DNA of 64,000 nt, from contig OX638133.1 of NCBI GenBank assembly GCA_951804985.1, forward strand, positions 48,209,983 through 48,273,982, in the 5' to 3' direction. Shown here piece by piece: positions 17,925 through 47,301 of this stretch (positions are counted from its first letter, which is position 1; every line of letters starts with the position of its first letter). Made by a program: the position numbers and the translations under genes. The notes under the pieces were generated by a model. It had not been told where the DNA came from and did no database searches. It worked only from the letters and a program-made list of their open reading frames with translations. Source of the stretch: Dryomyza anilis (Eukaryota; Arthropoda; Insecta; Diptera; Dryomyzidae).

Positions 17925-18674
17925 CACTAAGAAAACAAGATGTTTATGAAAGTATTGCTGCAACTATTCTTCTAAATTTACGCCTTGTAGCAAATATTCA
18001 AATATACCATAAGTTTCAATAAAGTTGCGGTAAAACTATTAATATTTTTTAAATATGACATATATGCAGATAGTTATGAGATGTTTGTCACACCAGCAAT
18101 GAAAATTGAGATATTTACGATTGACTGATAGCAAAAATCCTGAGTTCTTGGACATTTGCAGCAAAACTTTTGAAATATTTTGACATTTGACTACTATAAA
18201 AAAGGAAAATGGCGTACTTTTTCCTAACGCTCTATTTATCCACAACAATTAAGAAAATCCAATGGTGTGAAAAAGTGTCAACTCAAATAATTTTAATGGT
18301 AAAAGTGAAAATAAAATTTCCTGGGATTAAAATTATCAACAAGTGATGGAAAATTATGTCTTTTCAGAGTTTACTTTGATGACAGCATCTCTGGACGGAC
18401 TTTGTTCTTACGCGAAGGAGTCTCAAGTCATTACACAATTTCACCTTCAAAGGATTTATAAAAACGATCGCGATGTATTAACAGGATACTGTTTTAATTC
18501 TAGAATAAATAAAAATACATTCGATTTATTTTATTTTAATTCGATAAAAATTACTCCGCGAATTCTAATGGAGTACTTTTTCCAAAGAGATGGTTGTCTC
18601 AAAGACGATTTAAATAATTTGTAAATATCTTGATATTTCGGGTATTTCTGGTAATCATCTTTGTTTTCTTAGTG
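17925..18674 (+). mobile_element. MITE, CACTAAGAAAAC family, copy A
   Basis: The ends are CACTAAGAAAACAAGATG and, inverted at the right, GTTTTCTTAGTG, followed by TA (18,675-18,676); the left flank reads CA, apparently mutated from TA. The interior is shared with copies at 45,105-45,981, 30,481-32,044 (inverted) and partly 41,652-42,577. A GC-richer segment near 18,370-18,480 is open in copies A and B and may be a captured exon (consensus reading near FDDSI then LFFREEV), but single-base changes prevent a firm frame. Confidence 0.85.
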
Positions 18675-18721
18675 TATTTATTATTATTAATATATATAAC
18701 ATTAATATATATTATATAATA

Positions 18722-18812
18722 ATAGTTTGGCGCTACAGTACTGTGGAGAGCTTAGGCCGAGCTCTCTCACCATTTGAGCTCTGCGTGTTAAATTTATACT
18801 CAAATATAGATT
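18722..18812 (-). mobile_element. SINE family 1, 3' fragment
   Basis: Inverted match to the SINE tail: TTTGGCGCTACAGTACTGTG, then GGCCGAGCTCTCTCACCATT. Only the 3' part is present. Confidence 0.75.
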
Positions 18813-18825
18813 AATATATATATTA

Positions 18826-18925
18826 ATGGACAGTGGTCGAGTAGAAGTGTACTGGGTTTGCAATCCGAAGGAAGGGAGTTGAAATCACCGTGGAACATAT
18901 ATAGTGTAAAGATAATGTTTTTTCA
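18826..18925 (+). mobile_element. tRNA-like SINE/MITE head (family 2), copy
   Basis: Begins GGACAGTGGTCGAGTAGAAG and continues GTACTGGGTTTGCAATC to GAGTTGAAATCACC, with A-box-like and B-box-like spacing as in a tRNA. Copies occur at 21,500, 33,070 (inverted), 34,535 (inverted) and 42,795. The tail is A/T rich. Confidence 0.65.
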
Positions 18926-19018
18926 ATTAATAATAATTTAATTAAAATAATACAATTAAATTTAATTAATTTCAGAGCAGAAAAACGGAATACAAAATTA
19001 ATTAATTATTTAATAATA

Positions 19019-20218
19019 TATATGAGCCATTCAACAACAAATGAAATTTAGGCACCTGATAAAGTTTATTGAGATATGCATAGACCATTTTCTTTTTTCG
19101 ACCACTACTTCCAGAGATACAGTGCTTCAAAGTTACAAAAAATGGGCCAAAAATCACTTTTGTATGGTTTTTCATATTTTCATAGATATGCTAAAAACTC
19201 CATTGTGGCTCGTTTTAAAGCTAATAGAACAAGCGTTTAGAGAAATTAAGTTGTTATTTCTAAACTTGAAAATGTGGCCCGACGTTATTATCCTAACACT
19301 TCGAAATTGATGTCCCTAAAAAGGACCCGTTTTAAAATTCTGAAAAAAATCACAAATTTTGGTTGATTTAATATAAATGTTCGTGCCAAATTTTAAGATG
19401 GTATTTTGATTGCATCATATTTAAAAAAATAATTTTCTAAATGTTTATTTATTTTTTGCATTAAAAAAAATTTTTTTTTTTCGACAGTAAAAGTTGCAAT
19501 AATTTATGAATGTATTTCTAACTTTCTAAAATGGTGCCAGTTTTATCATATTGACTCTAGTTTTTGAGATATTGATTTTGGGGTATATTTTTTACATTTT
19601 TCAAAAAATGGTATATATCTCAAAAACTAGGGACAGTTTGATGAAACTGGTGCCATTTTCGAAATTAGAGTTACAAATACATTAAAAAATTATCTCAAAT
19701 TTTACTTTTGAAAAAAATATTTTATTTTTCAATACAAAAAATTTGTAAAAATTTAGAAAATTAATTTTTAAAATATGATGCAATCAAAACACCATCTTGA
19801 AATTTTGCACAATCATTTGTATTAAATCAACAAAATTACACGTTTTTCTTCAGAATTTTTAAAAGGGTACTTTTTAAGGACATCAATTTTGAAATGCAAG
19901 GATAATGACCACGGGCCACATGTTAAAGATTTGAATTTACAACTTAATTTTTCTTAAAGCCTGTTCTATTACTTTTAAAATGAGCCATCAACGATTTGGC
20001 TTTACTACTTTAAGAGATATTGAAATATAAACAACCATACAAAAGTGATTTTTGGCCAATTTGTTGTAACTTTGAAGCACTGTATCTCTGGAAGTAGAGG
20101 TCGAAAAAAAAATTGGTCAATGCATATCTCAATAAGCTTTATCAGCAGCCCAAATTTCATTGAAATCGAAGATGGTGAGTTCCAACAGCTATTCGATTTG
20201 GTGAGGAATGGCCCATAT

Positions 20219-20219
<1 letters not shown>
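19019..20219. mobile_element. 1.2 kb fold-back palindrome, ATGRGCCATTC ends
   Basis: The whole interval is two arms of about 580 bp facing each other around about 19,600. Matching landmarks are CCACTACTTCCAGAGATACA (19,101) against TGTATCTCTGGAAGTAGAGG (20,081), and CTCAAAAACTAGGGACAG against ATTGACTCTAGTTTTTGAG near the centre. The ends read ATATGAGCCATTC and GAATGGCCCATAT. A (TA)n run abuts the right end. No transposase. The shorter relative at 39,403-39,672 has the same ends. Confidence 0.85.
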
Positions 20220-20221
<2 letters not shown>

Positions 20222-20313
<92 letters not shown>

Positions 20314-20322
20314 TATATATAT
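20222..20322. repeat. (AT)n microsatellite, about 100 bp
   Basis: Pure AT dinucleotides for about 90 bp, with one AAATA interruption near the right end. Confidence 0.95.
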
Positions 20323-20484
20323 ACATATTTTTTTTTTGGTTATTGTATTAACATTGTATAACTGTACTCTAAAAATGTTTACACCGTTATTTTCAAAAGT
20401 ATGAATACAACCTTTTATTGTATACTTTAGATTAGAGTAATCAAATAGCATATACACGGTCATATGGTGTCCCAAGTAGCACAA

Positions 20485-20640
20485 TCAACTGAGAAAGTAA
20501 ACGTTAAATGGCATAAAACTGAATGAACGTAGTGTAGCTACTGTAACAGTAGGTCTTTTAAGTTCTATTAAATTCACCGTGTAAAGGTTTATTGAACTAA
20601 TAATACAACTCAGACACAGTGACATTAGTGACTTATATTG
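20485..20640 (+). repeat. Dispersed repeat, pair of 32,085-32,245
   Basis: The same 160 bp occurs in direct orientation at both places (for example GAGAAAGTAAACGTTA and GTGTAAAGGTTTATTGAACT). It has no coding frame. At 20,470 it abuts CCCAAGTAGCACAATC, whose inverted copy is at about 22,085. Confidence 0.75.
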
Positions 20641-20693
20641 CAGGGATTACCCAACCTTAATACGGGCGTCACGACGATAGCATGCCTGCCTTC

Positions 20694-20735
20694 TATGCAT
20701 GAGGACGCGGGTTCGAATCCGCGTCCTCATGCATA
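20694..20735 (+). ncRNA. Perfect 17 bp hairpin with tRNA B-box-like loop
   Basis: TATGCATGAGGACGCGG (20,694-20,710) pairs perfectly with CCGCGTCCTCATGCATA (20,719-20,735) around the loop GTTCGAAT. Stem plus loop contain a B box-like GGGTTCGAATCC, so this probably derives from the T arm of a tRNA or tRNA-derived SINE. A related GAGGACGCGGGTTCGAATC stands at 32,992-33,010 without the hairpin. Whether any RNA is made is unknown. Confidence 0.4.
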
Positions 20736-20808
20736 ATATTTATTATTATTAACAATATATTATTCTCATATAATTCATCATTATGATATTAAATCATTAT
20801 AATATGTA

Positions 20809-21446
20809 CACTCTCAGAAATATATTGTTGCTTTTTAACAATATGAGATTGTCATTTCATTATACAGTAATTATGTGGCACCTCTATCTTCTGGCAGCGA
20901 GATACATGTCAGTTTATTTTTGTTATTTATTTTTAAAATCAAGCAAATTGTAAGTTATATTTAATAATTTTATAATTTAGGAATTATTATAGCTATATTA
21001 ATTTTGTTCAGATACGGCAGTCACCAACTACAATGCTCGTCAAGGGCAATGTCTTCGGACCCAATTGGATGGCGATTTATATGCAAAATTAATAAATCTA
21101 TCTGCCTGTGTACGGGCAGATAGATGATGTATGCCAGCAAGCAGTCCTTCATGCAACTGTCCCAGTGTTGTTAATATCTTGACGACACATGTGCTCGCAG
21201 AACATGAACTTTTTTGTGACATTATATTAAATTTATTGCAATTATAAATTTTAAAAACATTTGAGTGACATTTCATTTTTGTTCATTGACAATCTCGATT
21301 GTTATCAACAACAATCTCATGACATTTTCAATATTAACAATCAGAATATCAAGCCGACAATAATATGACAATCTGATCATGAGATCTATTTTGAACATAA
21401 AGATTGCTACAATATTGTCGGAAATGACAAAATATTTCTGAGAGTG
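20809..21446. mobile_element. MITE, CACTCTCAGAAATAT family, copy 1
   Basis: The left end is CACTCTCAGAAATATATTG; the right end read inward is CACTCTCAGAAATATTTTG; TA flanks both sides (20,807-20,808 and 21,447-21,448). The right-hand 190 bp matches the left-hand 190 bp of the element at 26,316-26,939, but the middle differs. The middle (21,013-21,200) is GC-richer and exon-like on either strand. The plus-strand frame has TAVTNYNARQGQCLRTQL; the minus-strand frame has TTLGQLHEGLLAGIHH. Neither is recognised. Confidence 0.85.
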
Positions 21447-21499
21447 TATGTTGAAATTTAATAATTAATTCCCCAATACATACGTTTGGTTATTATACA

Positions 21500-21650
21500 T
21501 CGAAATGAATTGCATAATATTAATGAACAGTGGTCGAGTGGAAGTGTACTGGCTTTGCAATCTGAAGGAAGAGAGTTCTATTCACCGCCCGGGCTTGGTG
21601 AAATAAAAATCATGTTTTTTTCAATTATAAATAATATAATTAAGTTTGTA
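21500..21650 (+). mobile_element. tRNA-like SINE/MITE (family 2), copy
   Basis: Contains CAGTGGTCGAGTGGAAGTG, TACTGGCTTTGCAATC and GAGAGTTCTATTCACC, the best-preserved A- and B-box-like pair of this family. The upstream ATGAATTGCATAATATTAAT is shared with the copy at 42,795. Confidence 0.65.
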
Positions 21651-21779
21651 TAATTTCAGTTTAACAAAACTATATAAAAATTTAATTATTAATAATTAAA
21701 AAACGTAAATATTTATTTTTGTTTTTGTATTCATTGTATTCTATAAAAGTTGTAAAAAGCTCCTATAAACCTTTTCAGA

Positions 21780-22160
21780 GTAATCCAATAGCATTTACAC
21801 GACATCTTCATAGCTTTTATATAGTCATATGCTGTATATACTTACGCCCTTTGAACCATATAAAAGCTGTATAAGTACTTTCAGAGCTTTTATACGATAA
21901 AAATTACTGAATAAGAATATAGTGAAAAGCTTTACAACACATTTATATATGGATTGTGCTACTTGTGGTAAAGACTTACGCCCTTTGAACCATATAAAAG
22001 CCCTATAAGTACTTTAGAAGGTTTTGTACGGTAAAAATTACTAAATAAGAATGTTGTGAAAAGCTTTACAACACATTTATATAGGAGATTGTGCTACTTG
22101 GGATCCATAAAAGAACTATGTAGATGTCGTGTAAATGCTATTTGATTTCTCTAAAAAAGT
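21780..22160. mobile_element. MITE with internal 134 bp tandem duplication
   Basis: Terminal inverted repeats: CAATAGCATTTACACGACAT (21,787) and its inverted match ending TCGTGTAAATGCTATTTG (22,125-22,145). Inside, a block starting CTTACGCCCTTTGAACC is repeated at 21,841 and 21,975. A further inverted relative of the terminus stands at 20,440-20,455. Confidence 0.7.
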
Positions 22161-22204
22161 TAATGGAAACTTATTAGAACTTTTATACAATATAATGCAT
22201 ACAC

Positions 22205-22670
22205 ACAGAAAAATCCTCTTTTAGCATTAGGTTAATTGAGTCACCGTTTCAGTATTGCAACCGAAATACATTTGTTGTAACCTCATATCATTGAAATGAA
22301 CGTACCTTATTTTTCTACCTCCGAAATGTTAGTCCGCGCAACTGCACGTTTAGTTGCCGTAACCTCATGATTGCATTTTTCATTCTGCCAAAATTGACAT
22401 TCGTGCATTTGTTACGGCGATTGAGTAAGTTGTTGTTTCAACATAATAAATGACAAACGGCAACCTCATGTCTCTCAGCACTTCGGTTGCCAGTTTCTTT
22501 TCAACAACTATGGATACATGCAGAAATAAATAAACGTAAAAAATTTTTCACAAGTGGCAAACAATAGGAAATTCATTAATTAAGTAAAAATGCGAAATAA
22601 ATATACAAATATTAATAAAATAATATATTTATTCAATACAAATTGTTCATTAGCTAGTGAAATATTATAA
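22205..22670 (+). other. One-ended CACACAGAAAAA repeat with GC-richer patch
   Basis: TA then CACACAGAAAAATCC at 22,203 matches the terminus style of the MITEs here, but no matching right end is visible. The interior (to about 22,500) contains repeated GTAACCTCATG motifs and is otherwise anonymous. Confidence 0.35.
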
Positions 22671-23323
22671 GGTTATTCACTAAACGGAGCAGTTGCGATG
22701 TAGAGTAGCAGTTTTGTCAAGTAGCAGTTGCACAACAACAAAATTCATTGGTGGCAAAAACAAAAATTATCTGCTAATCTACTTCGCTAAAAGCTTGAGT
22801 TTACTTCGTGGTACTTTTGTAGTTTTTTAGTGATGATGAATTTATGACTTTTGGGTACTTGATATTACAGACAGTGTTTGATTATTGAGTTGAAATTCAC
22901 CAAAATGCATTATATTTAAATGAAAATATATATTTTTAATGAACATGTACATATATGCATGTGAATAAAAAAGAAATGATGGCATAATATCCACTGTTTT
23001 AACAATAAATATTAACGAGTTCCTATATAAGGTATGAGTTTTTTTTCTTAAATCGACATCACTAATCTAATTTGTTTACTTTGTTTTAATTATAATGTAT
23101 TGATATTGAATTAAAAATATGTAACAAAATGCATACTTATATATTGTATATGGCCAATAAGCAATAAATCTAAAATTTTAATGAAACAAAAACATCTGTT
23201 TTTGGTACATCAAACTGAAAACTACCATACTACACACATATGAAATAAGTGTGTTCACGAAATATGATACAATTCTACAATACTACTAATGTACATCGGC
23301 AACTGATCCGTTTTGTGAATAAC
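22671..23323. mobile_element. TIR element, GGTTATTCACGAAACGGA family, full copy
   Basis: The ends are GGTTATTCACTAAACGGAGC and, inverted, CCGTTTTGTGAATAAC. Inside, GATTAGCAGATAATTT-type and GCATTATATTTAAATG segments match partial inverted copies at 34,591-35,105 and 41,275-41,612. Those two contain an extra middle block with ACTTTTGGTGGCAGATG that is absent here. No transposase was seen and the target duplication was not resolved. Confidence 0.75.
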
Positions 23324-23541
23324 TTTTATATAAATAAAAAATGTCAACCAATGAAAAAGGTTTTTTTTATTTATTGGTTATGAGGAATTAAAAAATAAAT
23401 GCATGCAGGTACATGTATTTTTTCTTAGTTTTTTTTCAGGGAGCAGGAATTAGTAGATATACTTAGAAATTGTGTGCGCGACAATTTTACTCAATTATAA
23501 TACATATAGAACACATAAGTTTTGTATCATAAATAACTACA

Positions 23542-23880
23542 CTAAGAAAACAGAATGTTTATGAGAGTGTTGCTGCAAATAAAATACTGCTCGCTTTAAC
23601 AATTCCAGTATGCAGGAAATACAAATAAATTTGCAGCAAAAGTTTAAATAATTTGTAAACATCACATATTTTGTATTATTTGTGAGGTGTTTCTAATAAA
23701 CATCACGAAAAATTTCATATTTGTGGTAGATTCACTGCAACTACTAGAGAAGGAGGTAGCATTGCTGCAAATATTCACATATTCCATAGATATAAAGCTT
23801 TTGTAGCAAAACTATTAATATTGTCTAAATATCACAAAAAGTGTCAAATATTTGACTTGAATAACTTGCAACTGCAATTA
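23542..23880 (+). mobile_element. Diverged CACTAAGAAAAC element, left end
   Basis: TA then CACTAAGAAAACAGAATG starts the element, and subterminal TTGCTGCAA and TAGCAAAACTATTAATATT motifs match the family. The right end is not found. Confidence 0.55.
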
Positions 23881-24242
23881 TGTTTAAGACTCTAATACTT
23901 TTCAGCCATCTTTCGTTTTATTAGTGAATACTATAATAACATTTCAATTGGCGTTCATGCAAAGTCGTTCATATCAGCATCATGCAAAACAATTAGGGTT
24001 GTAAAATATAAAGTACTTTTCATACATTTATTATAAGCCGGCAACTCCTTCAATTACAGTCAAATTAATTAAATGTAAACAAAATTTAAAATAACATTAA
24101 ATTAAGAATTTTTAAATTAAATTGTCTTAAAAATACGATGCGATTGTGTTGATAAATATCTCGGGCGATTTAACCTTGGTAATGGGCTTGGTCACAGCAG
24201 TTATTTTGAAATCATACATCTATAAGATCACCAAATCAATAA

Positions 24243-24632
24243 CATTGGCGTCACTTCCCTGGTGCATCCTGCTTTGGATATAGCCTTCGGCGAACCCTTA
24301 CACACTTTGTAACGAAGTTCCAAAGGAAACTTGCACACACCGACCAGTATACAGCATCCCTGCTGCCGTCGACTTCGGTTCACATCCAGATGAACACGAA
24401 GAACTTTGCTGAATTTGAATACAAGGTAGCGGTTGGGAGGAACGTTTTTGCGCGCAACAGGCTTGGCCATCGCAGTGAGATTACATTCGTCAACTCAAGA
24501 ACTGCATGTCTGAGAGAGTTAGACGACAGGCAGTTGGCTGCCAAAAACAACTATGGAAACTCGTCACGAGATGATAAAGCAATATACGATAATAAAGAAG
24601 CAATGGAGCTGTCAATCTCTAAAAAAATGTAA
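24243..24632 (+). CDS. Unrecognised open frame of ~129 codons, GC-richer
   Basis: The plus-strand frame is open from just after a TAA at 24,240 to a TAA at 24,630; the first ATG is at 24,390. Local GC content is well above the flanks. The residues are protein-like (for example FRKLAHTDQ equivalents upstream, then EYKVAVGRNVFARNRLGH and LRELDDRQLAAKNNYG). The opposite strand is also open at 24,228-24,470 (PVARKNVPPNRYLVFKFSK), so the coding strand is uncertain. Neither is recognised. It is most likely a displaced exon or a processed fragment, not a complete gene. Confidence 0.35.
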   Translation, partial: HWRHFPGASCFGYSLRRTLTHFVTKFQRKLAHTDQYTASLLPSTSVHIQMNTKNFAEFEYKVAVGRNVFARNRLGHRSEITFVNSRTACLRELDDRQLAAKNNYGNSSRDDKAIYDNKEAMELSISKKM

Positions 24633-25110: not shown

Positions 25111-25114
25111 GCTT

Positions 25115-25890: not shown

Positions 25891-25893
25891 CTA

Positions 25894-26313
25894 CACACAT
25901 AGAAAATTATTGTCGAATCCGATGTGCAGTTCCGATGCGACCGATTCGACACCGCGTCAATTGTGCAACTCGACATACCCGATCTGGTGGTCGAGAACGG
26001 CGGCCTTATTAGGGTCAGCTTCGATTCGGAGAATGTCGCGTGTCACCAGATGCGTTTCCTGATGTAGCCGATCATATGAAAAACATTGGTTTGTGTGCCG
26101 ACGATATCGTGCGAAGATAACGAATATTTTTGAAGGCAGAAAATATAAAATTTCAAAAATATAAATAAAAATTGTATATGTCAAATTTATGCTACAGGGT
26201 GTCATAGAAAATCAATAATATTATGTTCAAACTAAAAATAATATTGTCGTTTGTTGCTTTCAAGAAATTGATAATATTTATTTTCAAAATTCGACAATTA
26301 TTTTCTATGTGTG
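25894..26313. mobile_element. MITE with exon-like cargo (CACACATAGAAAATT)
   Basis: The ends are CACACATAGAAAATTATTG and, inverted, CAATTATTTTCTATGTGTG; TA lies on both sides (25,892-25,893; 26,314-26,315). The interior 25,912-26,110 is strikingly GC-rich for this region. On the plus strand a frame is open from 25,903 to a TAG at 26,065, with residues such as TASIVQLDIPDLVVENGG. The minus strand is also open, with THLVTRDILRIEADP and AAVLDHQIGYVELH, which looks at least as protein-like. I do not recognise either. Its right TA is shared with the next MITE. Confidence 0.85.
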
Positions 26314-26315
26314 TA

Positions 26316-26939
26316 CACTCTCAGAAATATATTGTTATTTCCGACAATATTGTAACAATCTCGATGTTCAAAATAGATTTCATGATTAGATTGTTAAATT
26401 ATTGTCGGCTTGACATTCTGATTGTTAATATTAAAAATGTCATTAGATTGTTGGTGATAACAATCGAAATTGTCAATTTTAAATACAAATAAGTTGTCAG
26501 TTTAAAAATTTAATTGTAAAATGTAAAATACGATGGTACATGCAAAAGTTATTAATTAATTAATTAGTTAAATTACATCGACAACATATCACAATGCCTA
26601 ATCCGTTCTTGTGTAAGGGCTTGTTTAACAGATAAATAAGTATTCTTCTTGCAGGGCGTTTCAGAGAAATATGACGACGGCTTGAATTTTGCAGATGCAA
26701 TGTTTTGCAGTATTAGTATTGAGCCATCTGGTTGTTAAATAGTCTTGCTAAATACAATAATTAATAGATAATATTTATTCTAATACTCACATTTTTTGAT
26801 ATATAAAAGTTTTAAAAATAATTCAAAACAATTAATTGACTAATATGCCGAAGCCACAATACAGGGCTGCAACAAAATCACATTTTTATTAAATGACAAT
26901 CCCATATTGTTAAAATGTAACAATATATTTCTGAGAGTG
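26316..26939. mobile_element. MITE, CACTCTCAGAAATAT family, copy 2
   Basis: The ends CACTCTCAGAAATATATTG occur at both sides in inverted orientation, with TA at 26,314-26,315 and 26,940-26,941. About 190 bp at the left and 75 bp at the right match the termini of the 20,809 copy, while the centre is unrelated. The centre contains GTAAGG (26,613), a run ending TTCTTCTTGCAG (26,654) and a following short open stretch (GVSEKYDDGLNFADAMF), which resembles a small intron and exon start, but the evidence is thin. Confidence 0.85.
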
Positions 26940-28159: not shown

Positions 28160-29039
28160 CACCCAGAAAAAAATCATGGTAAATTGATAGTATTTCAATA
28201 GAAAAACAATAATTTATACCATTAAAATTGGTCAATAGGATGCGTCCCATTAGTTCAGTAATATTGTAACTGTTAATACAATGTGTGGTTGTACCATAAA
28301 TTTTATAATGTGATATTTTAATAATAATAAGAAAGACATATACAAATTTAATGATACGTATTATTAATTTTATGGTAAAGTCGAATTACATTTTCCTAAT
28401 AATTCATTAAAACAAAAATGTATTTTAGTTATTTTATTGTATATATTATTTTATTCAAATGTCGAAATTGATATTCATTTTTACAACACACACATAAAAC
28501 GATACTTCTTGCTGCAAAAGATTATAAAACATTTAATGTTTGCTTTGGTTTCCAATAATTGATTGTAGTACTTGAGTCTGCAGTTATTTTTGAGTCTGTT
28601 GCCATAATAGAAGTTCGATGTATTATTTATTTTCTGTAGTAAATAAAAATATAAATAAATATATAAAAATAATTTATTTACATTAAATACATTGAGTACT
28701 TACCAATGTCACGTTTAATAATGTGAATTATTACAAAAAAAATACATGCGACCATTTTAAGTAAACACGCAGAATGACGTATAAAACGAACATGTTTGTA
28801 TTCGTTTTATGTTTTTTTACACCACGTTTATTATTATAGGAGGAAACCATTAAAACAACAGTATTTATTCTATTCAAAATAATAATATTGAAATATTTAA
28901 ATTTATGGTATTAAATTTTTCAAATACTATTGAATTAATTAGAAAACTTTTGATTTAAAAAGAAAAAACTATTAATACATGAACCATGAGATCAATGGTC
29001 GTACCATAAAGTACTTAATGGTACATTTTCTTCTGAGTG
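28160..29039. mobile_element. MITE, CACYCAGAARAAAAT family
   Basis: The left end is CACCCAGAAAAAAATCATGG, the right end read inward CACTCAGAAGAAAATGTACC, with TA on both sides (28,158-28,159; 29,040-29,041). The interior 28,190-28,910 is duplicated at 29,383-30,100. A terminus-only relative is at 40,797. Confidence 0.8.
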
Positions 29040-35235: not shown

Positions 35236-35743
35236 ACATAGAGATCTCACCTCATTATCTTTCATTTTTACGACGTATTACTCTGACGAATATCTGAACA
35301 AACAACAAACAAAAAATTCTCTCTGAGAAAATTAAACGTCAGCAAAAAAGACTTGTAGATAAGAGAAATCTGACTTTTCGCCGATCCAAAGCTGATCAAA
35401 AAGAAAATTGATGACAATTTAAACAAAGGCATTATTTTATATATTTCTTGTTTTATTTAAGTGTTTTTTTTTACAAAGTTGTTTTTGTTTTGTGTGAATT
35501 TAATATAAATTAAATAATAATAAAAATAAGTATTAAAAAACATTTTTTACAACACAAAATTACAAATTACTTAAGATATAATTTAAATAAACTATGATAC
35601 AACGGCGGTACGAGCAGCTATTCGCAAGACGAGATTCGCTTCATTGTAGATTGTCGTCAAAGTACATATCGATAGAAAATCTGTAAGAAATGCAAAAATT
35701 ATAGATTATTAAATTTTATATATGGATTTTTTTAAATAATATT

Positions 35744-37404
35744 TATTATATATTTATATATTTATATATTTATATATTTATATATTTATATATTTATATA
35801 TTTATATATTTATATATTTATATATTTATATATTTATATATTTATATATTTATATATTTATATATTTATATATTTATATATTTATATATTTATATATTTA
35901 TATATTTATATATTTATATATTTATATATTTATATATTTATATATTTATATATTTATATATTTATATATTTATATATTTATATATTTATATATTTATATA
36001 TTTATATATTTATATATTTATATATTTATATATTTATATATTTATATATTTATATATTTATATATTTATATATTTATATATTTATATATTTATATATTTA
36101 TATATTTATATATTTATATATTTATATATTTATATATTTATATATTTATATATTTATATATTTATATATTTATATATTTATATATTTATATATTTATATA
36201 TTTATATATTTATATATTTATATATTTATATATTTATATATTTATATATTTATATATTTATATATTTATATATTTATATATTTATATATTTATATATTTA
36301 TATATTTATATATTTATATATTTATATATTTATATATTTATATATTTATATATTTATATATTTATATATTTATATATTTATATATTTATATATTTATATA
36401 TTTATATATTTATATATTTATATATTTATATATTTATATATTTATATATTTATATATTTATATATTTATATATTTATATATTTATATATTTATATATTTA
36501 TATATTTATATATTTATATATTTATATATTTATATATTTATATATTTATATATTTATATATTTATATATTTATATATTTATATATTTATATATTTATATA
36601 TTTATATATTTATATATTTATATATTTATATATTTATATATTTATATATTTATATATTTATATATTTATATATTTATATATTTATATATTTATATATTTA
36701 TATATTTATATATTTATATATTTATAATTTTATATATTTATATATTTATATATTTATATATTTATATATTTATATATTTATATATTTATATATTTATATA
36801 TTTATATATTTATATATTTATATATTTATATATTTATATATTTATATATTTATATATTTATATATTTATATATTTATATATTTATATATTTATATATTTA
36901 TATATTTATATATTTATATATTTATATATTTATATATTTATATATTTATATATTTATATATTTATATATTTATATATTTATATATTTATATATTTATATA
37001 TTTATATATTTATATATTTATATATTTATATATTTATATATTTATATATTTATATATTTATATATTTATATATTTATATATTTATATATTTATATATTTA
37101 TATATTTATATATTTATATATTTATATATTTATATATTTATATATTTATATATTTATATATTTATATATTTATATATTTATATATTTATATATTTATATA
37201 TTTATATATTTATATATTTATATATTTATATATTTATATATTTATATATTTATATATTTATATATTTATATATTTATATATTTATATATTTATATATTTA
37301 TATATTTATATATTTATATATTTATATATTTATATATTTATATATTTATATATTTATATATTTATATATTTATATATTTATATATTTATATATTTATATA
37401 TTTA
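35744..37404. repeat. Octanucleotide satellite (TTTATATA)n, ~1.66 kb
   Basis: About 207 head-to-tail copies of an 8 bp unit TTTATATA. I find one interruption, at about 36,727-36,728, where TA reads AT within TTTATAATTTTATATA. The flanks are AT-rich but not octameric. Such uniformity over 1.6 kb implies recent expansion, strong homogenisation or an assembler-extended array; copy number should be treated as approximate. Confidence 0.97.
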
Positions 37405-37925
37405 AATAATTTGAATATAAAATTTATATGTTTTAAAATGTTAAGATGTTTTAAATTGTTAGATTAAATTTCTAGACAAAATTAAAATTTTTAAATTAAA
37501 TTTTAGTTTAAAATAACATTAAAATTAAAATTAAATTAAAATTTTAAAATAAAATTTAAATTTAAAATTTTTAGATGTGTCAAATATTTAAACCAAATTG
37601 TAAACAAATTTGTAATTTTTTCTAAAAATTGTATTCTATTATATTGTTTAGATTAAATTTGTAGATAAAATTTAAATTTTTAAATAAAATTTAAAATTTT
37701 AAATTAAAATTATATTTTTAAATATTATTTTAAATTTGGAGACAAAATTTTAAATTTTTATAAAATTTGTATTTTTTATAATACTTGATCAAATGTTTAA
37801 AACAAAAGCGTAAAATTTAAAAAATTAAAAATTAGAAACTGAAACCATTATCGGAATAAGTGTCCATTTATGATGTTATCAGTTTTATTAAGTGGAGTTA
37901 TTAAATCTATTTAATACAACTCATT
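37405..37925. other. AT-rich TTTAAATTT-type degenerate repeats
   Basis: Imperfect repeats of AAATTTTAAATTAAA with no coding capacity adjoin the satellite. Confidence 0.5.
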
Positions 37926-37979
37926 ATATATTATTATATTGAACAAATTACAAATTAAAAACTGAAATAGTTCAAATAC

Positions 37980-38095
37980 CTTAAATGTTGTATTCAATTC
38001 GTCCATTGCGATCTTCCCTTCATCCGCAAGATGCTTGAATGACACAAGCTTGCAGAGCAGCAGTAGCCACAACGTCACTTCTTCAAGGTTGAGCA
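37980..38095 (-). other. Exon-like fragment with donor site
   Basis: A minus-strand frame (VLNLEEVTLWLLLLCKLVSF, then KHLADEGKIAMDELNTTFK) ends at a donor AAG/GTATTTG (37,980/37,979). Composition is markedly coding-like. It sits 300 bp downstream, on the minus strand, of the duplicated exon-like units. It is not recognised. Confidence 0.4.
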
Positions 38096-38214
38096 CATTG
38101 CGTAAGAATCATCATCGCTTGAAAGAGTCATCATCGATTGTTACCTTTATATGCAATTGAAGCTGTGAATCAAAATTAAATTTAAAAAAAATACTCTTTA
38201 TTAAAAAAGTTTAT

Positions 38215-38882
38215 ACTAACTTCTCTGATGCGATGATTATATTCAAGCGCAGTAGAATTTGATCAGACGATGCGAAATGAAAGTGCGTGAAATGCGACTG
38301 CACCGCGACGCAGACAACGCACGTTCGCTGTATACTTTTCGATAATTTTAAGTTAAACAGAAACATAGTTAAAATGCAAAACCAAATGATTACCTTTAAA
38401 TTCCGCAGGTGTGGTTTGTAGCAAAGATCATTATCTGACCACGCACTCTAATGCCGTTATCATCCTTCAGCTGCAGCAACATAGGCATCAACTTTACCGG
38501 CGTGTAGTTAGATTCAGGCAAATATTGTCTTGGGGAGTGAAAATAAGAATACTTTAGATTAAAAACAAATTATAAAACCTTCTCTGATTCCATGTCTATA
38601 TCCAGACGCAGTAGAATTGTACAGACGATGCGAAAGCGCGTACAACGCGACTACACCGCGGCTATTACTTTGCTCAGATGACGCATGTTCGCTGTGTACT
38701 TTTACATATAATTAGGTAAAATGTATAACTTAAAATGGCAATACAAATTGATTACCTTAAAATTCGGTGGGTGCGGGTCAAGGTATAGTTCATTATCAGG
38801 CCACGCACAATACTGTCATCATCGGAGATTAGCTCCAGCAGTATTGACTACACTGGCGTGTCTAATATTGTCTTGCGGTACC
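38215..38882 (-). repeat. Tandem duplication of an exon-like unit
   Basis: Two related units (38,215-38,530 and 38,575-38,882) each hold, on the minus strand, an exon-like block bounded by an AG acceptor (CCCCAAG; CCGCAAG) and a GGTAATC donor: 38,528-38,394 and 38,881-38,756. The translations align (YTPVKLMPMLLQLKDDNGI with RVRGQIMI; DTPV, stop, SILLELISDDDSI with VRGLIMN), so this was coding sequence when duplicated; the second copy has a stop. A conserved CGCAGTAGAATT segment lies between. The product is unrecognised. Confidence 0.5.
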
Positions 38883-39211
38883 AGCGAACAATGCGGCAAC
38901 TGTTTTGGATTAACTAATTGTCGTGATTATCTAAATTTATACATATTAATGTTAATGCAATATAAAGCAAATAAATTCAAATTTAAAACTTACAATTTAT
39001 GGCGCGTCCAACAAAAATTTTCATTTGATTAAACATTTTTTTGACATTTTAGTCAATGACATCTTAGCAATTTTCTTGTTGCGCTTTGAACTTTACGAAA
39101 AATAAAATAAAAGAGATATAATCAACAGCCATTTTTGAATAATTTTCTCTCGAAAGAAAGTTGAAAAGGGAAATGAATTATATGACATATAATTTTTGTA
39201 CGAGAAAAATC

Positions 39212-39235
39212 AGAGCGGAGCTGAAATCACACTGG
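39212..39235 (+). repeat. CCCAGTG-type element terminus
   Basis: AGAGCGGAGCTGAAATCACA then CTGGG; closest to the 17,510 copy. Confidence 0.5.
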
Positions 39236-39402
39236 GAAGAAGTGTAGTTGTGTCAGTGTTGCCACTTTTTGTGTAATTCCACAAAAACAGTGCATTTTTG
39301 ATCTCATTGTGTATTTTTGTGTACTTTTTGTGTAATTTAGAATCAAATAAAATTATACTACAAAAGAAAAATTTAAAGAGTTTCAAGAATATTTCCAGAT
39401 AT

Positions 39403-39672
39403 ATATATGGGCCATTCCACACCAAATCGACCAAAAAAAGTCAAATTTGAGATTTTACCTTTTCGATCTTAATGAACTTTTGGCAACTGATAAAGGGTAT
39501 CGAGACATGCACTAAACAATTTTTTTTTTATTTTTTCCGACCACTACTTCCAGAGATACAGTGGCTCAATATTGATAAAATTTAGATACACTTTATCAGT
39601 TGCCAAAATTTCATTGAAATCGAAGTAGGTGAGTTCCAACCGCTGGTCGATTTGGTGTGGAATGGCCCATAT
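39403..39672. mobile_element. Small ATGGGCCATTCC inverted-repeat element
   Basis: The ends are ATATGGGCCATTCCACACCA and, inverted, GTGTGGAATGGCCCATAT. Inside, CCACTACTTCCAGAGATACA and CAACTGATAAAG are shared with the long palindrome at 19,019. An ATATATAT run precedes the left end. Confidence 0.8.
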
Positions 39673-39675
39673 ATA

Positions 39676-40796
39676 AATCACTATCGCCTACTGTAATTCG
39701 AAGGCAATCATATAAAAGTTCTGTAGCGGTACGAATCGCTACGTGATTGAAGTATTTGAGTATCCGTCGTCTGTAGACAGTATATATGTACAAATTTATT
39801 ACCTATGTAATTTGAATATTCACTAATTTTTATATTATTTCAACCATAGTCTAAATAGTGAAAAAGGGAAAAATTGAAAAATGTTGTTGTCAAACTATAT
39901 TAAATTTCAAACAGTAAAACAGAATGTACTTGGATTATTAAAAATAGTGATATCAACATATTTAAAGATTTTTGAATTTAGATTAAATTTAAATTTATAA
40001 AATTCGAAAATGAGAAACGCTTTTGTATTCCGCAGAACCAGTTAAAAGGATGTTTTATCTCAGGAAGAAAAAATGACAAAATGATGTAATATTTTAGATA
40101 TAGTTTGTTTAGACTTTGCCCAATATTTTCAGTCAAAAATATTATCTTGCATTAAAAAAATCCTTTATTAAAATAGTATGAAGTTATATCGATATTCTAC
40201 AGGCAACCGATAGCAACCAATAGAAAGCACAGAAGGAGAAAAAAGTCAAAAAATTGAGTAGATAAACTCGAAGTGTCATTTAATTGAGCTAACAATAATA
40301 ATAGTGTGGCACAATTTTCAAAATATCCAATACTTGCAGAAAAATGTAGATGTCCCAATTTATTTCAAACCCAAATTATTTCAAGTCATAAAAAAATTGT
40401 GTAATTTTTTTCTGCAAAACTATTGTATGTTTAGTGTTTACCAAAATTACTTCAACAATTTTTAGTCCATATAAACGCAAATGCAGAAAATGGTTTTAAT
40501 ATCGTAAAATCAATATAATATAAAATATCACCTGATAATTTATTACCCACATTGGTCGTTTTCATGAAAACGATACAGAAGATTTGTATAAATATTCCTC
40601 CAAATCTCTGCTTAAAAATTATTAAAAATAGTAAAGAAATAAAAATTTGATTTTTTGTGCATTTTGTCATAATTACGATTTCGTTTGAATATCTTAAAAA
40701 TATAATTGGGTTTTTGGAAAAAATACTTGATAGCAAATACAGTTTATTTTTTTTAGTACAAATTATTTTAGGTTTTTCTTTTTTTTTATTATTATA
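39676..40796. other. No supported feature
   Basis: AT-rich DNA with chance frames; no repeat partner noticed in the window. Confidence 0.5.
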
Positions 40797-40880: not shown

Positions 40881-41274
40881 GTATTGTACATTTACTTTTA
40901 TTCGTTTCATACTGTTTTATATGAAATATCGTAACTGTTACCAAAATGATGGCAATGAACGATTACCGTTCCGGAATTAAAATGTTACTGGTAAAATACT
41001 AGTATGAAACGTTTTCCAAACTGTAGGAAATTATAAACTTTTTATATTTTATTATATTTTTTATTTTGTGAAATATCCAATAATATCTTTCAACAACTAT
41101 AGAGGATTTTTCATTTTAAGGATTTTCACAGCAATGCGCATACAAACAAAGAGGTTTTAATTCGTTTTACAAAAGCATTAAATAATAATGAAATAATCAT
41201 ATCTTTATCGATTATTACAACGGCAAAATCAAGATTATTAATATGGCAACTCTGCGCACTGACGTTTGAAATTT

Positions 41275-41612
41275 CATAGAACGGGGCGGAAACGGAGTGA
41301 AATTCAGATCTGCCTACTTTTGGTGGCAGATGTTGATTCCACCCGTTTCGTTGCTGAAACGGAGTTGTTAACTTCACATACGTGAATTTCAATTCAATAA
41401 TCAAACACTGTCCGTAATATCAAGTACCCAAAAGTCATAAACTCAGCATTACTAAAACACTACAAAAGTACCACGAAGTAAACTCAAGCTTTTATCGAAG
41501 TAGATTAGCAGATAATTTTTGTTTTTGCCATCAGTGTATTTTGTTGTTGTACAACTGCTACTTGACAAAACGGCTACTCTACATCGCAACTGCTCCGTTT
41601 CGTGAATAACCT
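41275..41612 (-). mobile_element. GGTTATTCAC-family TIR element, partial
   Basis: Inverted match to the left half of the 22,671 element, ending TGCTCCGTTTCGTGAATAAC at 41,610, plus the extra block CTACTTTTGGTGGCAGATG. The other terminus is missing. Confidence 0.7.
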
Positions 41613-41651
41613 TCTTGTACAATTCATTTTGATGTACATTAATCAAACGTA

Positions 41652-42577
41652 CACTAAGAAAAGAAAATGTTTATGAAACTCTTGCTGCAACTATCTGTTT
41701 AAATTTACGCTTTATAGCAAATATTCAAACATCCCATAAGTTTCAATAAAGTTGAAGCAAACTATTAATATTTTTTAAATATGACATATATGCAGATAGT
41801 TACGAGATGGTTGTAACAACAGCAATGAAAATTGAGATATTTACTGTTAACTTGAGTTCTTGGACATTTGCAAAAATAAATGTTGAGTTATTTTGACATT
41901 TGACTACTATAAAAAAGGAAAATGGCGTACTTTTTTCTTTCGCTCGATTTATCCACAACAATTAAGTAAATCCAATAATTAAAAAAAAAAATCAGCTCAT
42001 CAAATAATACATTTTAATGGTAAAAGTTATTTACAAATTGTTTAAATCGTATTTGAGACAACCATCTCTCAAACTTCCGTCAAATACGATAAATATTGCC
42101 AGCAACCATCTTTTAAATTTACGATTATCTATAGCAACCATCAATTAAACATCTGACAAATAGGAAGATAGTTGATGAATATTTGGAAAAGGTACTCTAT
42201 TAGAATTTGAGGAGTAATTTTTATTAAATAAAAGGATCAAATTATTTTTTATTTATTCTAGAATTAAAATAGTATCTTGGTTATACATCGCCATCGTCTT
42301 CAAATATAAAATTGTACAACGACTTGACACTACTTCGCGGAAGAACCAAGTACGACCAGTGATGCTGTCATCAAAGTAAACGCTGAAAAGAGATATTTTC
42401 CATCACGTGTTGATAATTTCAATCCCAGGAAATTTTATTTTCACTTTTACCATTAAAATGTAATGTTTGAGTTAAAACTTTTTTGACACCATTTGATTTA
42501 CTCAATTGTTGTGGATAAATCGAGCATAAAGAAAAAGTACGCCATTTTCCTTTTTTATAGTAGTCAAATGTCAAAAT
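41652..42577. mobile_element. CACTAAG-family MITE, internally inverted composite
   Basis: TA then CACTAAGAAAAG starts a left half in the same orientation as copies A and B (to about 42,020). The sequence then turns around: 42,025-42,577 is the family body in reverse, from the right-end side TTTACAAATTGTTTAAATCG back to TAGTCAAATGTCAAAATAA. The block AAAAAGGAAAATGGCGTACT therefore occurs twice, facing itself. It ends abruptly at a LINE fragment. Confidence 0.75.
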
Positions 42578-42735
42578 AATGTTTCGTGCTGCGGCGAAGG
42601 TAATTAGCCTCGTTCTGTTATCGGAAGTGTTGGAATGGAGGCTAAAGTTTCCGATTGTGGGACTATAGATGCCTTCTCTGCCTACCTTGGCGTTAAAATA
42701 TCGTGGCGGGGGCAGCTCGTTTATGTTGTCCAATT
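42578..42735 (-). pseudogene. RTE-like LINE endonuclease fragment
   Basis: Minus-strand reading FNAKVGREGIYSPTIGNFSL and SDNRTRLITFAAARNI matches the LINE endonuclease at 15.3 kb. A deletion joins PPPRY to FNAKVG. Only 158 bp remain between two other repeats. Confidence 0.8.
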
Positions 42736-42736
42736 T

Positions 42737-42776
42737 AACCCAGTGTCTTGTTAGCTTCGTTCTGTCCTATTTCTAA
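42737..42776 (-). repeat. CCCAGTG-type element terminus, inverted
   Basis: CCCAGTGTCTTGTTAGCTTC then GTTCTGTCCTATTTC matches the inverted 32,953 terminus most closely. Confidence 0.5.
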
Positions 42777-42794
42777 CAGCTGAATGCAACAATA

Positions 42795-42890
42795 ATGAAT
42801 TGCACAATATTAATGGACAGTGGTCAAGTGGATGTGTACTGGCTTTGCAATCTGAAGGAAGAGAGCACAATTTCCTGCTTTGTGAAATAA

Positions 42891-42895
<5 letters not shown>
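42795..42895 (+). mobile_element. tRNA-like SINE/MITE (family 2), copy
   Basis: ATGAATTGCACAATATTAAT, GGACAGTGGTCAAGTGGATG and TACTGGCTTTGCAATC match the 21,500 copy; the B-box half is shortened and runs into (AT)n. Confidence 0.6.

Positions 42896-42970
<75 letters not shown>
42895..42970. repeat. (AT)n microsatellite, about 75 bp
   Basis: Pure AT repeats, followed at once by ATGGGGCATTCCATGTCAAT (42,967-), a relative of the ATGGGCCATTCC terminus. Confidence 0.95.
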
Positions 42971-42972
<2 letters not shown>

Positions 42973-43559
42973 GGCATTCCATGTCAATTCGCCGAGCTTT
43001 GACCCTGACCCCCTCCGATTTGCTTCATATTTTCAAAGTAAAAACACGATTTTTGCTGTTTTGCAAAACTGGCTTTTTAAAATTCTGAAAAAATTTACAT
43101 AAATTCTTCACATTGAACAAAGATCATTCCACTTTGATTTGGAGTGGTAAGAATTTTTCTTCTATTTTTATTCTTAACTTTGAAAATCTTGTTTTTTAGT
43201 ATATAAATCGTCTTAATTTTGGATTGGTTTGAGATATATCAATAAAAACTGGTATATACTCATACCCAATAAGCACTGAGTTTAAGGTTCGATAAATTTG
43301 GAGAATTTTCTTTTATAACTAGTGTGGATGTAATGTCATGATCAAGCCGAATAAATGAATATTATTCCAACGTTTGTTTTCGAAGTTAAAAAAACTTGAC
43401 ACGAAATTCACTAAACAAAATTACTCAGTGGCAACCCAGTGACGTGATAAATTAAATGTCAACAAGAAAATTTTAATTTTTTTCTCCACTACATATGTGC
43501 CACTGCATTCGCACAATCAGTGTCATCATTGTTTTTCGCTTGAATTAGCAAACAGACAA

Positions 43560-43875
43560 AACAAATAATATATAAGTGCAAGTCCAAACACGAAAGTCAT
43601 CCCGAGAATTCTACTGCACGATGATCTCATATACAATGTAAGTGGGCTAGGTTTACGAATTCTTTTATGAAATATTAATATATTTTCATTCATACGCAGA
43701 CAACATTGATATTTTACGCGAACCTGGCAAAGTTATACATCGCAGTGGCGCAATTGGATTAACTGGTTTGATCTTCGCGGAACGTCGTGGATTTTTCAAG
43801 AAGTTCCTGTACACTGCCACCAGTGCAGGTGCTGTTGCAGCTGTAGAACATACTTTAATTCCTTTTAATATATAG
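43560..43875 (+). pseudogene. Captured MICOS Mic26-27/ApoO-like exon pair
   Basis: After an intron-like stretch (donor GTAAGTG at about 43,640, acceptor ATACGCAG at 43,699) a frame runs from 43,700 to a TAG at 43,873: ILREPGKVIHRSGAIGLTGL, IFAERRGFFKKFLYTATSAG, AVAAV. A glycine-rich hydrophobic segment followed by a basic RRGFFKK turn and a second hydrophobic segment resembles the membrane domain of the mitochondrial inner-membrane organising (MICOS) subunits Mic26/Mic27. Family assignment is from memory of the domain. The upstream exon is degraded, so this is a fragment carried by a mobile repeat, not a working gene. Confidence 0.55.
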
Positions 43876-43936
43876 TATTATAACTTATATGCGTTTTCCT
43901 TTATTTTATATTTAAACCTTTAATTATGGAAATATA

Positions 43937-44647
43937 CACAGAAAATAAACGGGTTCTTAATATTAACGAATGCTGTTCATAGAGGCAAATTCATACGTTT
44001 TAATGCAAGATACATTGTGACAATGTACATTGTCCTGTAACTTGTTTGTGAATTTAATGATCAGTTCATTTTCAGTAAGAATCAGTGTTCATAATACGCA
44101 CAAATAAATTTAATGATATTTTTCATACTTCAACGAATTATATTCATTGAAATACTGCAGTAGACATTTTGCATGTTCGTTTTTCGTGTTCGTTGCTAGT
44201 AGCGTTAGCTGCGCTCTGCTGCTATTAATTCGCAGAAAGCTGCGACAAATGTAAGAAATAGTTGCGAAATGAAGTGCGAAATTAAATTTAATTTATATTA
44301 TACTATTATATTTAATGTATATATTAATTGAATTTACATTAAAATAATAAAATGAAAAAACTTTCTGAATTCACTTTTGTTTATGATCTCGTTCATTAAA
44401 GTATGTATTCGATTCATTGCGACAATGAACTCTCGCATTCAATATAGCTAATGAAATATTCATTGTAATTATGAATATTTGTCATTTTGTTTCATGATCC
44501 ATACATTGTAATTCAATGAATTTGTACATTGAAGTATTACCGGAAATTCGTTGTGACAATGAACAATTACATTGGACCAATTTTAACGAAATATTCTTTG
44601 TGATAATGTACTTTTTCATTGTAGATATGTACTTTTTTGGTTCAGTG
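43937..44647. mobile_element. MITE in MICOS repeat, TA duplication proven
   Basis: The left end is CACAGAAAATAAACGGG and the right end ...GGTTCAGTG; TA is on both sides (43,935-43,936 and 44,648-44,649). Copy 1 of the host repeat has the uninterrupted site with one TA (1,532-1,533), which shows directly that this is an insertion with TA duplication. The TIRs are short and imperfect. Confidence 0.85.
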
Positions 44648-45081
44648 TATGCGCTTGAATTCAAGTGTAATTTGAAGGTCAAATCACATTTTATTTATAG
44701 CTTACAATTAAGTTAAACCTCGAATGTATATAAAAAGTCGGAATTCAAGTTTAGGTAACGGCTAGATTCAATTGGATAAAAAGCTATCAGTTTTGCTGGA
44801 GAACGCTATGGTTTTCAAGCTTACAATTACAAAAAGTTGAACGCTTTTCTCCAGTGAAAGCTTCGATATCCATGTTCAATATACATTCGAAAATCACTTA
44901 ATATCCAGGTTTTTGGTTTATAAGGTATGTCTTAAGTACAAACCGTGTTACAAAAAATGGGCGGTTATTGTCAACTCCCACGCCTAGCTGCCATATAACA
45001 TTTATAGTAAACACGCTATAAGGGGTATTTTATTGAAATTTTGTCCAACATCATGTAATATACAAATTAAATGGACCACTG

Positions 45082-46090
45082 AAAATTGTTGGTTTTCAAG
45101 CTTACACTAAGAAAACTAGATGTTTATGAAAGTCTTGCTGCAACTATCCTTTTAAATTTACGTCTTGTAGCAAATATTCAAACATCCCATAAGTTTCAAT
45201 AAAGTTGCAGCAAAACTATTAATATATTTTTAATATGACATATATGCAGATAGTTACGAGATGTTTGCCACAACAGAAAAGAAAATTGAGATATTTACAG
45301 CTTACTGATAGCAAACATCCTGAGTTCTTGGACATTTGTAGCAAAACTTTTGAGGTATTTGACATTGACATTGAAAAAAGGAAAATGGCGTACTTTTTCC
45401 TTATGTTCGATTTATCCACAACAATTAAGTAAATTCAATGGTGTAATGGTGTAAAATATTACATTTTAATGGTAAAAGTGAAAATAAAATATCCTGTGAT
45501 TTAAATTATCAACACGTGATGGAAAATATTTCTTTTCAGAGTTTACTTTGATGATAGTGTCGCCGGTCGGACTATGTTCTTCTGCGAAGAAATCTCAAGT
45601 CGTTGTACAAATTTGCCTTCGAAGGATTAAAAAAGACGATGGCAATGTATACCAGGATGTACCATGTACCAGGATACTGTTTTAATTTTAGAATAAATAA
45701 AAATACATTTGATTCATTTTCTTTCAATTCAATAAAAATTACTCCGCGAATTCTATTGGAGTACCTTTTCCAAACATTCATCAACTATCTTCCTATTTGT
45801 CAGATGTTTAGTTGATGTTTGCTATACATAATCGTAAATTTGAAAGAAGGTTGCAAGCAATATTTATCGTATTTGACGGATGTTTGAGAGATGGTTGTCT
45901 CAAATACGATTTAAATAATTTGTAAATAACTTGATATTTAGGGCTGTGATATTTCTGACAATCATCTTTGTTTTCTTAGTGTACAATTATAAAATGTTGA
46001 ACGCTTTTCTCCAGTGAAAGTTTCGATATACATGTTCAATATACATTCGAAAATCACTTAATATCCATGTTTTTCGTTTATTGGGTATTC
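45082..46090 (+). mobile_element. MICOS repeat copy 3 (partial), split by a MITE
   Basis: GGTTTTCAAGCTTA before 45,105 and CAATTATAAAATGTTGAACG after 45,983 are the two halves of a segment that is continuous in copy 2 (44,808-44,840). Only the outer end of the repeat is present, without the exon part. Confidence 0.75.
45105..45981 (+). mobile_element. MITE, CACTAAGAAAAC family, copy B
   Basis: The ends are CACTAAGAAAACTAGATG and GTTTTCTTAGTG, with TA at 45,103-45,104 and 45,982-45,983. The empty site at 44,822-44,823 has a single TA. The body matches copy A. The central GC-richer segment reads MIVSPVGLCSSAKKSQVVVQ in one frame; the consensus frame across copies is uncertain. Confidence 0.9.
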
Positions 46091-46274
46091 AAAAATATAG
46101 TCAACCTATTATTTGTAGACAAACATTATTTAATATACTTAATAAAGGCAAACGAGCAAATAATACATTTCAAATAGAAACAAAAACAAATAAATTGACT
46201 TTAACATACAGAAAACATAAATAAAAATCGCAGTGACTTTTGTATACAGAAAAATATTTCAAATTTGAAATATG

Positions 46275-47301
46275 CACCCAAAAAAATATTGTTGTACTAT
46301 TAACAAGATCGGCATTGTTAAATTTCTCTTAAAAAATATTTGTATTATATAAACATTAATGTTGTTGCAACAAGATTCTTATTAATTGAAACAAGACTAC
46401 AAGTTCAATTACAACAGCATTTATAATGCTAAGATATTCATCTTGTTAATAAAAATAGATGTTTTTTTCATTTTTAAGCATGTGACGCTGTCACATGGAA
46501 AATTAATTAAATAATATATAAATAAATCAAAAGTTTTGAAAATAAACACAGGTAACGATTAAAGAAATAAACGACTGATTCTGCTAATATATTTTATATT
46601 TGCATGTGTGTATGGAAGAATCGAGCCATTCAGCGATAAGGATCACAAGCAACATGCAGCAACAATCTGAAAAATGAATTTAAATTTTCCAGAGGCAATG
46701 GCTGTTTCATCCACATCTCTCGATTTCATACTTGTATTTCGGGTCCCCGGACGCTCGGAAGGCCGTGTAATATCCATGTAGTTAAAATACCCGTAATATC
46801 CAGGTATTTACTGTTCGAACTACCCGTAGTTCATTTGTTCGTCTGATCGTTTGTTCATGTCTGTCTGTCATTTTGAAGAACTACCAGGGTAGTTCGAACA
46901 GTTTATATTCGTGTATTACGGGCCCCCGAATAATTGCGAGCTCCGGTATCATCGCAACACTACTTTGTATCCAAATTTTTCAATAAATTCTAGAAATGGT
47001 AATTATGCGTTTTATTCAATAAAATAAATTGAAAGGATAGAGTTACTATCCCTACGACAATTATTCTTTAAATAACTTGATCTTCTTGTTAATATAAATA
47101 CATTTCCGTTTCTATATAACAGAATGTCTCTCTTGATATTAACAACACTTTGTTGAGCGTCAATTTAAAACATCTGAAAGTATTACAATGCTGTTGTTTT
47201 TTTTTTATATTAAGAAGATATGTCTTTGGACGTAAATTAACAAGATGTCTTGTTATATTAAACACAATTTTTGTTAATAGTACCAGATTTTTTTTTGGGT
47301 G
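46275..47301. mobile_element. TIR element CACCCAAAAAAA, 1.03 kb
   Basis: Left CACCCAAAAAAATATTG and right, inverted, CACCCAAAAAAAAATCTGG, both continuing to TACTATTAACAA. The flanks read TG on both sides and not TA, either a mutated TA or a different duplication. A smaller palindrome lies inside at 46,735-46,945. Confidence 0.7.
46735..46945. repeat. Nested palindrome, GTTCGAACTACCC arms
   Basis: ACTGTTCGAACTACCCGTAG (46,810) pairs with CTACCAGGGTAGTTCGAACA (46,881); outside these, GGGTCCCCGGACGCTCGG pairs loosely with ACGGGCCCCCGAATAATTG. It looks like a small foldback inserted in the larger element. Confidence 0.6.

Follow-up and report, generated by a model that had tools for sequence, protein, structure and literature searches.

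Why do short transposable elements with unrelated interiors end in the same bases? The question is raised by a stretch of 64,000 nucleotides from Dryomyza anilis (the window; C4:48209983-48273982 in a genome of 656.6 Mb and 69 contigs), in which several families of miniature inverted-repeat transposable elements (MITEs) carry a common outer end, TA|CAC-n-AGAAA, in most copies, where n counts the bases between CAC and AGAAA. In most copies this spacer is 0, 2 or 4 bases long, and matching ends number in the ten thousands genome-wide. We propose, with a probability of about one half, that one transposase, or a few close relatives of the Tc1/mariner (IS630) type, moves these non-coding families through a single terminal signal. 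Sharing of one mobiliser by unrelated MITEs is an old question, and if one enzyme does serve all the families, a large share of the small repeats in this genome would be explained.

Local counts were made in 264 kb, comprising the window and 20 random stretches of 10 kb (L015-L034, 200 kb together); genome-wide, exact end patterns were counted with the reversed pattern as control. TACAC-n-AGAAA with n from 0 to 6 has 20 occurrences in the window, where 100 shuffles average 1.91 (maximum 5), and the three of these ends that are unpaired have n = 5, 1 and 6. The random 200 kb hold 19 occurrences, compared with 6.6 ± 3.2 in 15 order-3 Markov simulations (maximum 15) and with four of the reversed pattern. 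Of the 118 TA-CAC words in the window, 20 are followed by AGAAA, the mean across the 64 TA-XYZ words being 1.4%; the corresponding values in the random 200 kb are 19 of 347 (5.5%) and 1.9%, with two other words only slightly behind. Eight TA-flanked inverted-repeat pairs starting with CAC were found in the 264 kb and all eight bear the shared end, and the flanks AT, AA, TT, CA, TG and AC gave 0, 1, 0, 0, 1 and 0 CAC pairs; in the same pair search, seven other starts, mostly of low complexity, are commoner than CAC beside TA. Genome-wide, the family A end TACACTAAGAAAAC occurs exactly 3,356 times against 9 reversed and the 24-base ends of family C 214 times against a control of 0, and the family A end occurs 0 times in viral contigs. 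The shared ends were not found printed in the accessible parts of the literature searched.

The elements lie in the window as follows.

1377..1648, minus strand: paralogous empty site for family F, with one TA
4746..5687, plus strand: family E MITE of 942 bp, ends CACGCAGAGAAAAA / CACGCACAGAAAAA, n = 4, TA on both sides
17925..18674, plus strand: family A MITE of 750 bp, flanked by CA on the left and TA on the right
20809..21446, plus strand: family B MITE of 638 bp, ends CACTCTCAGAAATA, n = 4, TA on both sides
22202..22240, plus strand: left end of a family H element, CACACAGAAAAATCC, n = 2, preceded by TA
23540..23926, plus strand: short family A subtype of 387 bp, right end diverged, right flank AA
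25894..26313, plus strand: family C MITE of 420 bp, ends CACACATAGAAAAT, n = 4, TA on both sides
26316..26939, plus strand: family B MITE of 624 bp, ends CACTCTCAGAAATA, n = 4, TA on both sides
28160..29039, plus strand: family D MITE of 880 bp, ends CACCCAGAAAAAAA / CACTCAGAAGAAAA, n = 2, TA on both sides
41652..41663, plus strand: left end of a rearranged family A copy whose body reaches about 42580
43937..44647, plus strand: family F MITE of 711 bp, left end CACAGAAAATAA with n = 0, right end CACTGAACCAAAAAA without AGAAA, TA on both sides
44810..44863, plus strand: paralogous empty site for the family A copy at 45105-45981, with a single TA
45105..45981, plus strand: family A MITE of 877 bp, ends CACTAAGAAAAC, n = 2, TA on both sides
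46275..47301, plus strand: family G, a loose relative of 1,027 bp, ends CACCCAAAAAAA, no TA adjoining these bases

These elements have inverted ends, lengths of 387-1027 bp in the window, high copy number and no coding capacity, as is usual for MITEs; no open reading frame of at least 110 aa is listed wholly inside A (17925-18674 and 45105-45981), B, C, D, E, F or G. The AGAAA block is absent from both ends of G and from the right end of F. BLAST at E<=1e-3 gave no interior match between families A to H, and beyond about 13 bp the ends diverge by family as well. A first-pass annotation of positions 17925-47301 had described at least seven families beginning with CAC. Shared ends with mixed interiors are borne out by these comparisons, and A, B, C, D and F are indeed such families within that range; E lies outside it and G lacks the AGAAA block, and the CACACACAGAAAAAC family occurs only at 4281 (≤1 mismatch), outside the range and next to AA. 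Nor does TA adjoin G at the bases given, or the right end of the short A subtype.

Some copies extend this catalogue. A full-length D element at L017:8221-9098 is 94% identical to that at 28160-29039, and L008 holds an end pair about 385 bp apart that resembles the short A subtype. The adjoining C (25894-26313) and B (26316-26939) have one TA between them, at 26314-26315. Family E is flanked by pieces of a non-LTR retrotransposon, and a right end of the H element at 22202 was not found. On another contig (G000:C2:73946363-73978902), seven family C ends stand in the same orientation about 5.4 kb apart, a segment bearing a MITE end being repeated there in tandem.

The length of the spacer is the second regularity. 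It is 2 in A, D, H, M (L016:4993-5222) and one end of element K, 4 in B, C and E, and 0 in the left end of F, in L033:6071-6914 and in the other end of K, and the range of 2-5 given in the first-pass annotation has to be replaced by these three values. Counts of TACAC-n-AGAAAA in the 264 kb for n from 0 to 8 are 8, 0, 13, 0, 7, 2, 0, 2 and 1, the reversed pattern giving 0 or 1 each time; the two ends at n = 5 are taken as probable D ends whose first block reads AGAAG, hence n = 2. The idea of parity arose from a near-flat count at n = 3, was recorded, and was then tested genome-wide on n = 2 and n = 1. For n = 2 there are 18,476 exact ends against 362 reversed, a 51-fold excess, and for n = 1 there are 273 against 337, no excess. 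No mention of an even-step spacer was met in the literature, though no search was aimed at the spacer rule; this step and its scale look like what is new here.

Element K combines an n = 2 end with an n = 0 end in each of two separate copies (L014 and L017), which shows that these two end types, at least, work together. This bears on the possibility that each family has its own autonomous parent and that the ends are alike through a common ancestor and slow evolution. In favour of such separate parents, the sequence beyond about 13 bp of the end is family-specific, and weak signals of family-specific repeated words were found in the subterminal regions; this word signal is suggestive only, because the random background is heavy-tailed. 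But the mixed ends of K indicate that some enzyme accepts either spacer type. In the n = 2 listing of 100 places, which all lie on C1, 12 of the 16 possible NN pairs are represented, and this also argues against separate parents. We regard this explanation as possible but doubtful.

According to our preferred explanation of one terminal signal, the transposase would bind the A-rich GAAAA block of the end, the cut would fall at the CA/TA border, and anything between two such ends would be pasted into TA. Only the outer 12-15 bp would be needed, the filler would be replaceable, and the interiors could be unrelated for this reason. The even steps would most simply arise if whole CA/CN dinucleotides were added or lost at the tip, a change that the enzyme would tolerate. 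In its strictest form, which we offer tentatively and consider rather unlikely as it stands, a single TA-preferring transposase reads the CAC tip and the GAAAA block at spacings of 0, 2 or 4 bases and mobilises many thousands of elements with unrelated interiors. The dinucleotide-step spacer, together with a mixed-spacer element that has spread, gives a testable handle on what the transposase reads.

Evidence on the target comes from empty sites, where the duplicated sequence is TA in four of four readable cases and the junctions are otherwise unchanged, as had been supposed when the flanks were first read as TA duplications. One TA becomes two between paralogue 44810-44863 and the A copy at 45105-45981, and likewise between paralogue 1377-1648 and the F copy at 43937-44647. 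In the other two cases one shared-end element is nested in another: K is inserted in an A copy of L014, for which the A copy of the window is the empty version with one TA, and D is inserted in a K copy of L017, for which the K of L014 is the empty version with one TA. A search of the window and sampled loci for empty versions of 13 element junctions gave one clean new site (that of F) and one weak match, for A1, at 52020.

When pairs of ends were searched without regard to flanks (13 bp, ≤1 mismatch, 264 kb), 10 pairs with the shared end were obtained, one of them a shifted copy of C. TA stands on both sides in six of the nine distinct pairs, and the A element at 17925-18674 has CA/TA. Across the window and L001-L014, TA adjoins 30 of 39 family A ends. 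This set includes ends that were fetched for having TA, the near-identical neighbours L001-L004, and the overlapping loci L008 and L010. In L008, CA instead of TA stands after an H end.

With these results, a coincidence of low-complexity sequence, in which CA-repeats followed by A-runs happen to lie beside the common dinucleotide TA, becomes highly improbable. The window is A+T-rich (about 70% A+T), and CA-repeats and A-runs are frequent in such DNA. But chance accounts for neither the strong excess at n = 2 with none at n = 1, nor the pairing and inversion of the ends, nor the precision of the empty sites.

Which kind of enzyme is involved is a closer matter. Tc1/mariner enzymes yield a TA duplication and CA...TG ends. 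The TA duplication speaks for a Tc1/mariner enzyme, which is favoured over a CACTA enzyme by about two to one. MITE families with common ends but different interiors are a known kind, as in Stowaway of grasses, Tc1/mariner MITEs that are moved by Osmar and have a TA duplication, short non-coding bodies and high copy number. The present families resemble Stowaway in all these features, and differ in that its ends are of the CTCCCTCC type, whereas here they begin with CAC, read TA|CAC-n-AGAAAA and have even spacers. DD38E/Intruder elements are alike in another respect: in bees they are printed as starting CACTA or CACTG (PMC8472432, accessible part), and Tc1/mariner elements insert at TA (PMC7731502, accessible part). 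The starts printed in those parts show no AGAAA block, and no DD38E gene bearing the shared ends came to light here.

The rival reading is that the families are CACTA MITEs of the CMC superfamily, moved by a CACTA transposase that makes 2-bp duplications. There is precedent for it: CMC MITEs of polydnaviruses and ENS1_Cis of Ciona are described as sharing ends that are always CAC...GTG, together with a duplication of 2 bp (PMC6004678, accessible part). CAC/GTG ends and a 2-bp duplication are also what we find, and since CMC MITEs of this kind are published, CACTA is a live rival. The closest described elements, CMC-NA_1 and CMC-NA_2, which occur in wasps too, share with ours the CAC...GTG ends, the 2-bp duplication and the failure to find an autonomous partner, according to the same accessible part of PMC6004678; they were compared by description, and the CACTA elements read here differ in beginning with CCC. 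The weak family-specific subterminal words would suit a CACTA system as well, and CACTA transposases (PF02992) are many in this genome. Against it, the two lineages with identified ends start CCCCTACAGCAC and CCCAAGAAAC. We consider a CACTA origin unlikely, but well above a formal alternative.

Both kinds of transposase were looked for. The CACTA profile PF02992 gives 4 matches in the genome and none in any of 14 control genomes, and one PF02992-type protein gives 79 matches (77 of 458 candidates scored). For a lineage with a 698-aa transposase, 28 of 3,682 candidates were scored; at least 16 copies, the query among them, are near-full and 99-100% identical, and the lineage has apparently spread very recently. 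To the left of six of its copies stand AT, TA, CG, TT, AA and TT, and it was rejected as the partner, for its ends are CCCCTACAGCAC and begin with CCC. The second lineage likewise starts with CCC. Nine further copies, two of them belonging to one lineage, were followed into their 3′ flanks for 2.1-2.35 kb each; these flanks showed no TA-CAC-n-AGAAA, most element ends lying beyond reach. In them an end CCCAAGAAACAAAACG was recognised on one side of one copy, and occurs genome-wide 135 times at ≤2 mismatches against 1 reversed. When 121 proteins, 120 of them CACTA relatives, were compared with the window and L015-L034, no CACTA match was obtained. The named relatives of one transposase found here include those from the flies Hermetia, Haematobia, Zeugodacus and Lucilia and from other insects.

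A copy of the 698-aa lineage at L039-L040 (C7:10215800-10225800) has a second, oppositely directed gene, and in Lucilia cuprina the CACTA-type transposase P0025 carries DUF4806 (PF16064) within the same 793-aa protein. The second genes beside CACTA transposases here may be of this DUF4806-like kind.

Tc1/mariner sequences are abundant as well, with at least 150 matches to PF13358 (150 scored of 2,435 candidates), over a dozen of which have open frames of 330-385 aa. Of the 3′ flanks read, four in all, three belong to one lineage and the fourth stops short of the end. This lineage (L058, L059 and L061; end in L062) was rejected as the partner, its end being CAGCTATGGCC. A Tc1 motif search of the window and sampled loci returned one degenerate stretch in L030 and a chance match, without ends, and inspection by eye of 100 listed places each for A and C ends, a part of the genome, gave no convincing long element. 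The first-pass annotation saw no autonomous partner in the sequence, and none was found among the two CACTA lineages and the one Tc1 lineage whose ends were read.

Several points weigh against a single signal read by one Tc1/mariner system. No element with CAC-n-AGAAA ends and a gene inside was found among those same lineages, and the 3′ end of the Tc1 lineage reads CAGCTATGGCCAAAATA (by eye, on one side only). Moreover, CAC...AGAAAA resembles the CACTA terminus CACTACAAGAAAA. Two of the nine distinct end pairs lack TA on either side, which suits the CACTA reading: L016:4647-4865, with CACCTAGAAAAAA/CACCCAGAAAAAA and CT on both sides, and L018:3534-4215, with CA/TG. Such pairs may be decayed sites, misread tips or real non-TA insertions, and that in L016 is perhaps a non-TA insertion by the same system. 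At n = 3 the genome-wide count lies slightly above the control (529 against 363 reversed), and the genome-wide basis of the spacer rule is n = 1, 2 and 3, other values coming from the local 264 kb. In addition, one short family, whose CACCCAGAAAAA ends are spaced by about 210 bp, stands out in the n = 2 listing of 100 places, and the 18,476 n = 2 ends are therefore not independent observations or families.

The proposals of the first-pass annotation have to be qualified accordingly. TA on both sides of nearly every element is found for the six pairs above, and the CT/CT, CA/TG and CA/TA pairs depart from it. The Tc1/mariner assignment, made from TA and the CA start, is still favoured since TA is what is duplicated, with CACTA/CMC as a live rival and two end pairs that have TA on neither side. 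One transposase for all the families agrees with the shared ends and the TA duplication, but a gene bearing such ends was not found, and in the three lineages read the ends are different.

Beyond the MITEs, the window contains non-LTR retrotransposon genes and, at 60377-61084, an exon resembling the N-terminus of the netrin receptor unc-5 (PF25609). A palindrome of about 4 kb with long and largely perfect arms lies in retroelement sequence at 10789-14750, and its inner part (12290-13746) has two arms of 495 nt that are 100% complementary. A long tandem array at 35705-37467 has frames that translate as (IYIF/IYLY)n, and G+C is 19% across 36001-40000. Finally, tRNA-like stretches, read by eye, recur near 18830, 21530 and 42820 and at 20668-20730, and are perhaps short retroelements of tRNA origin.

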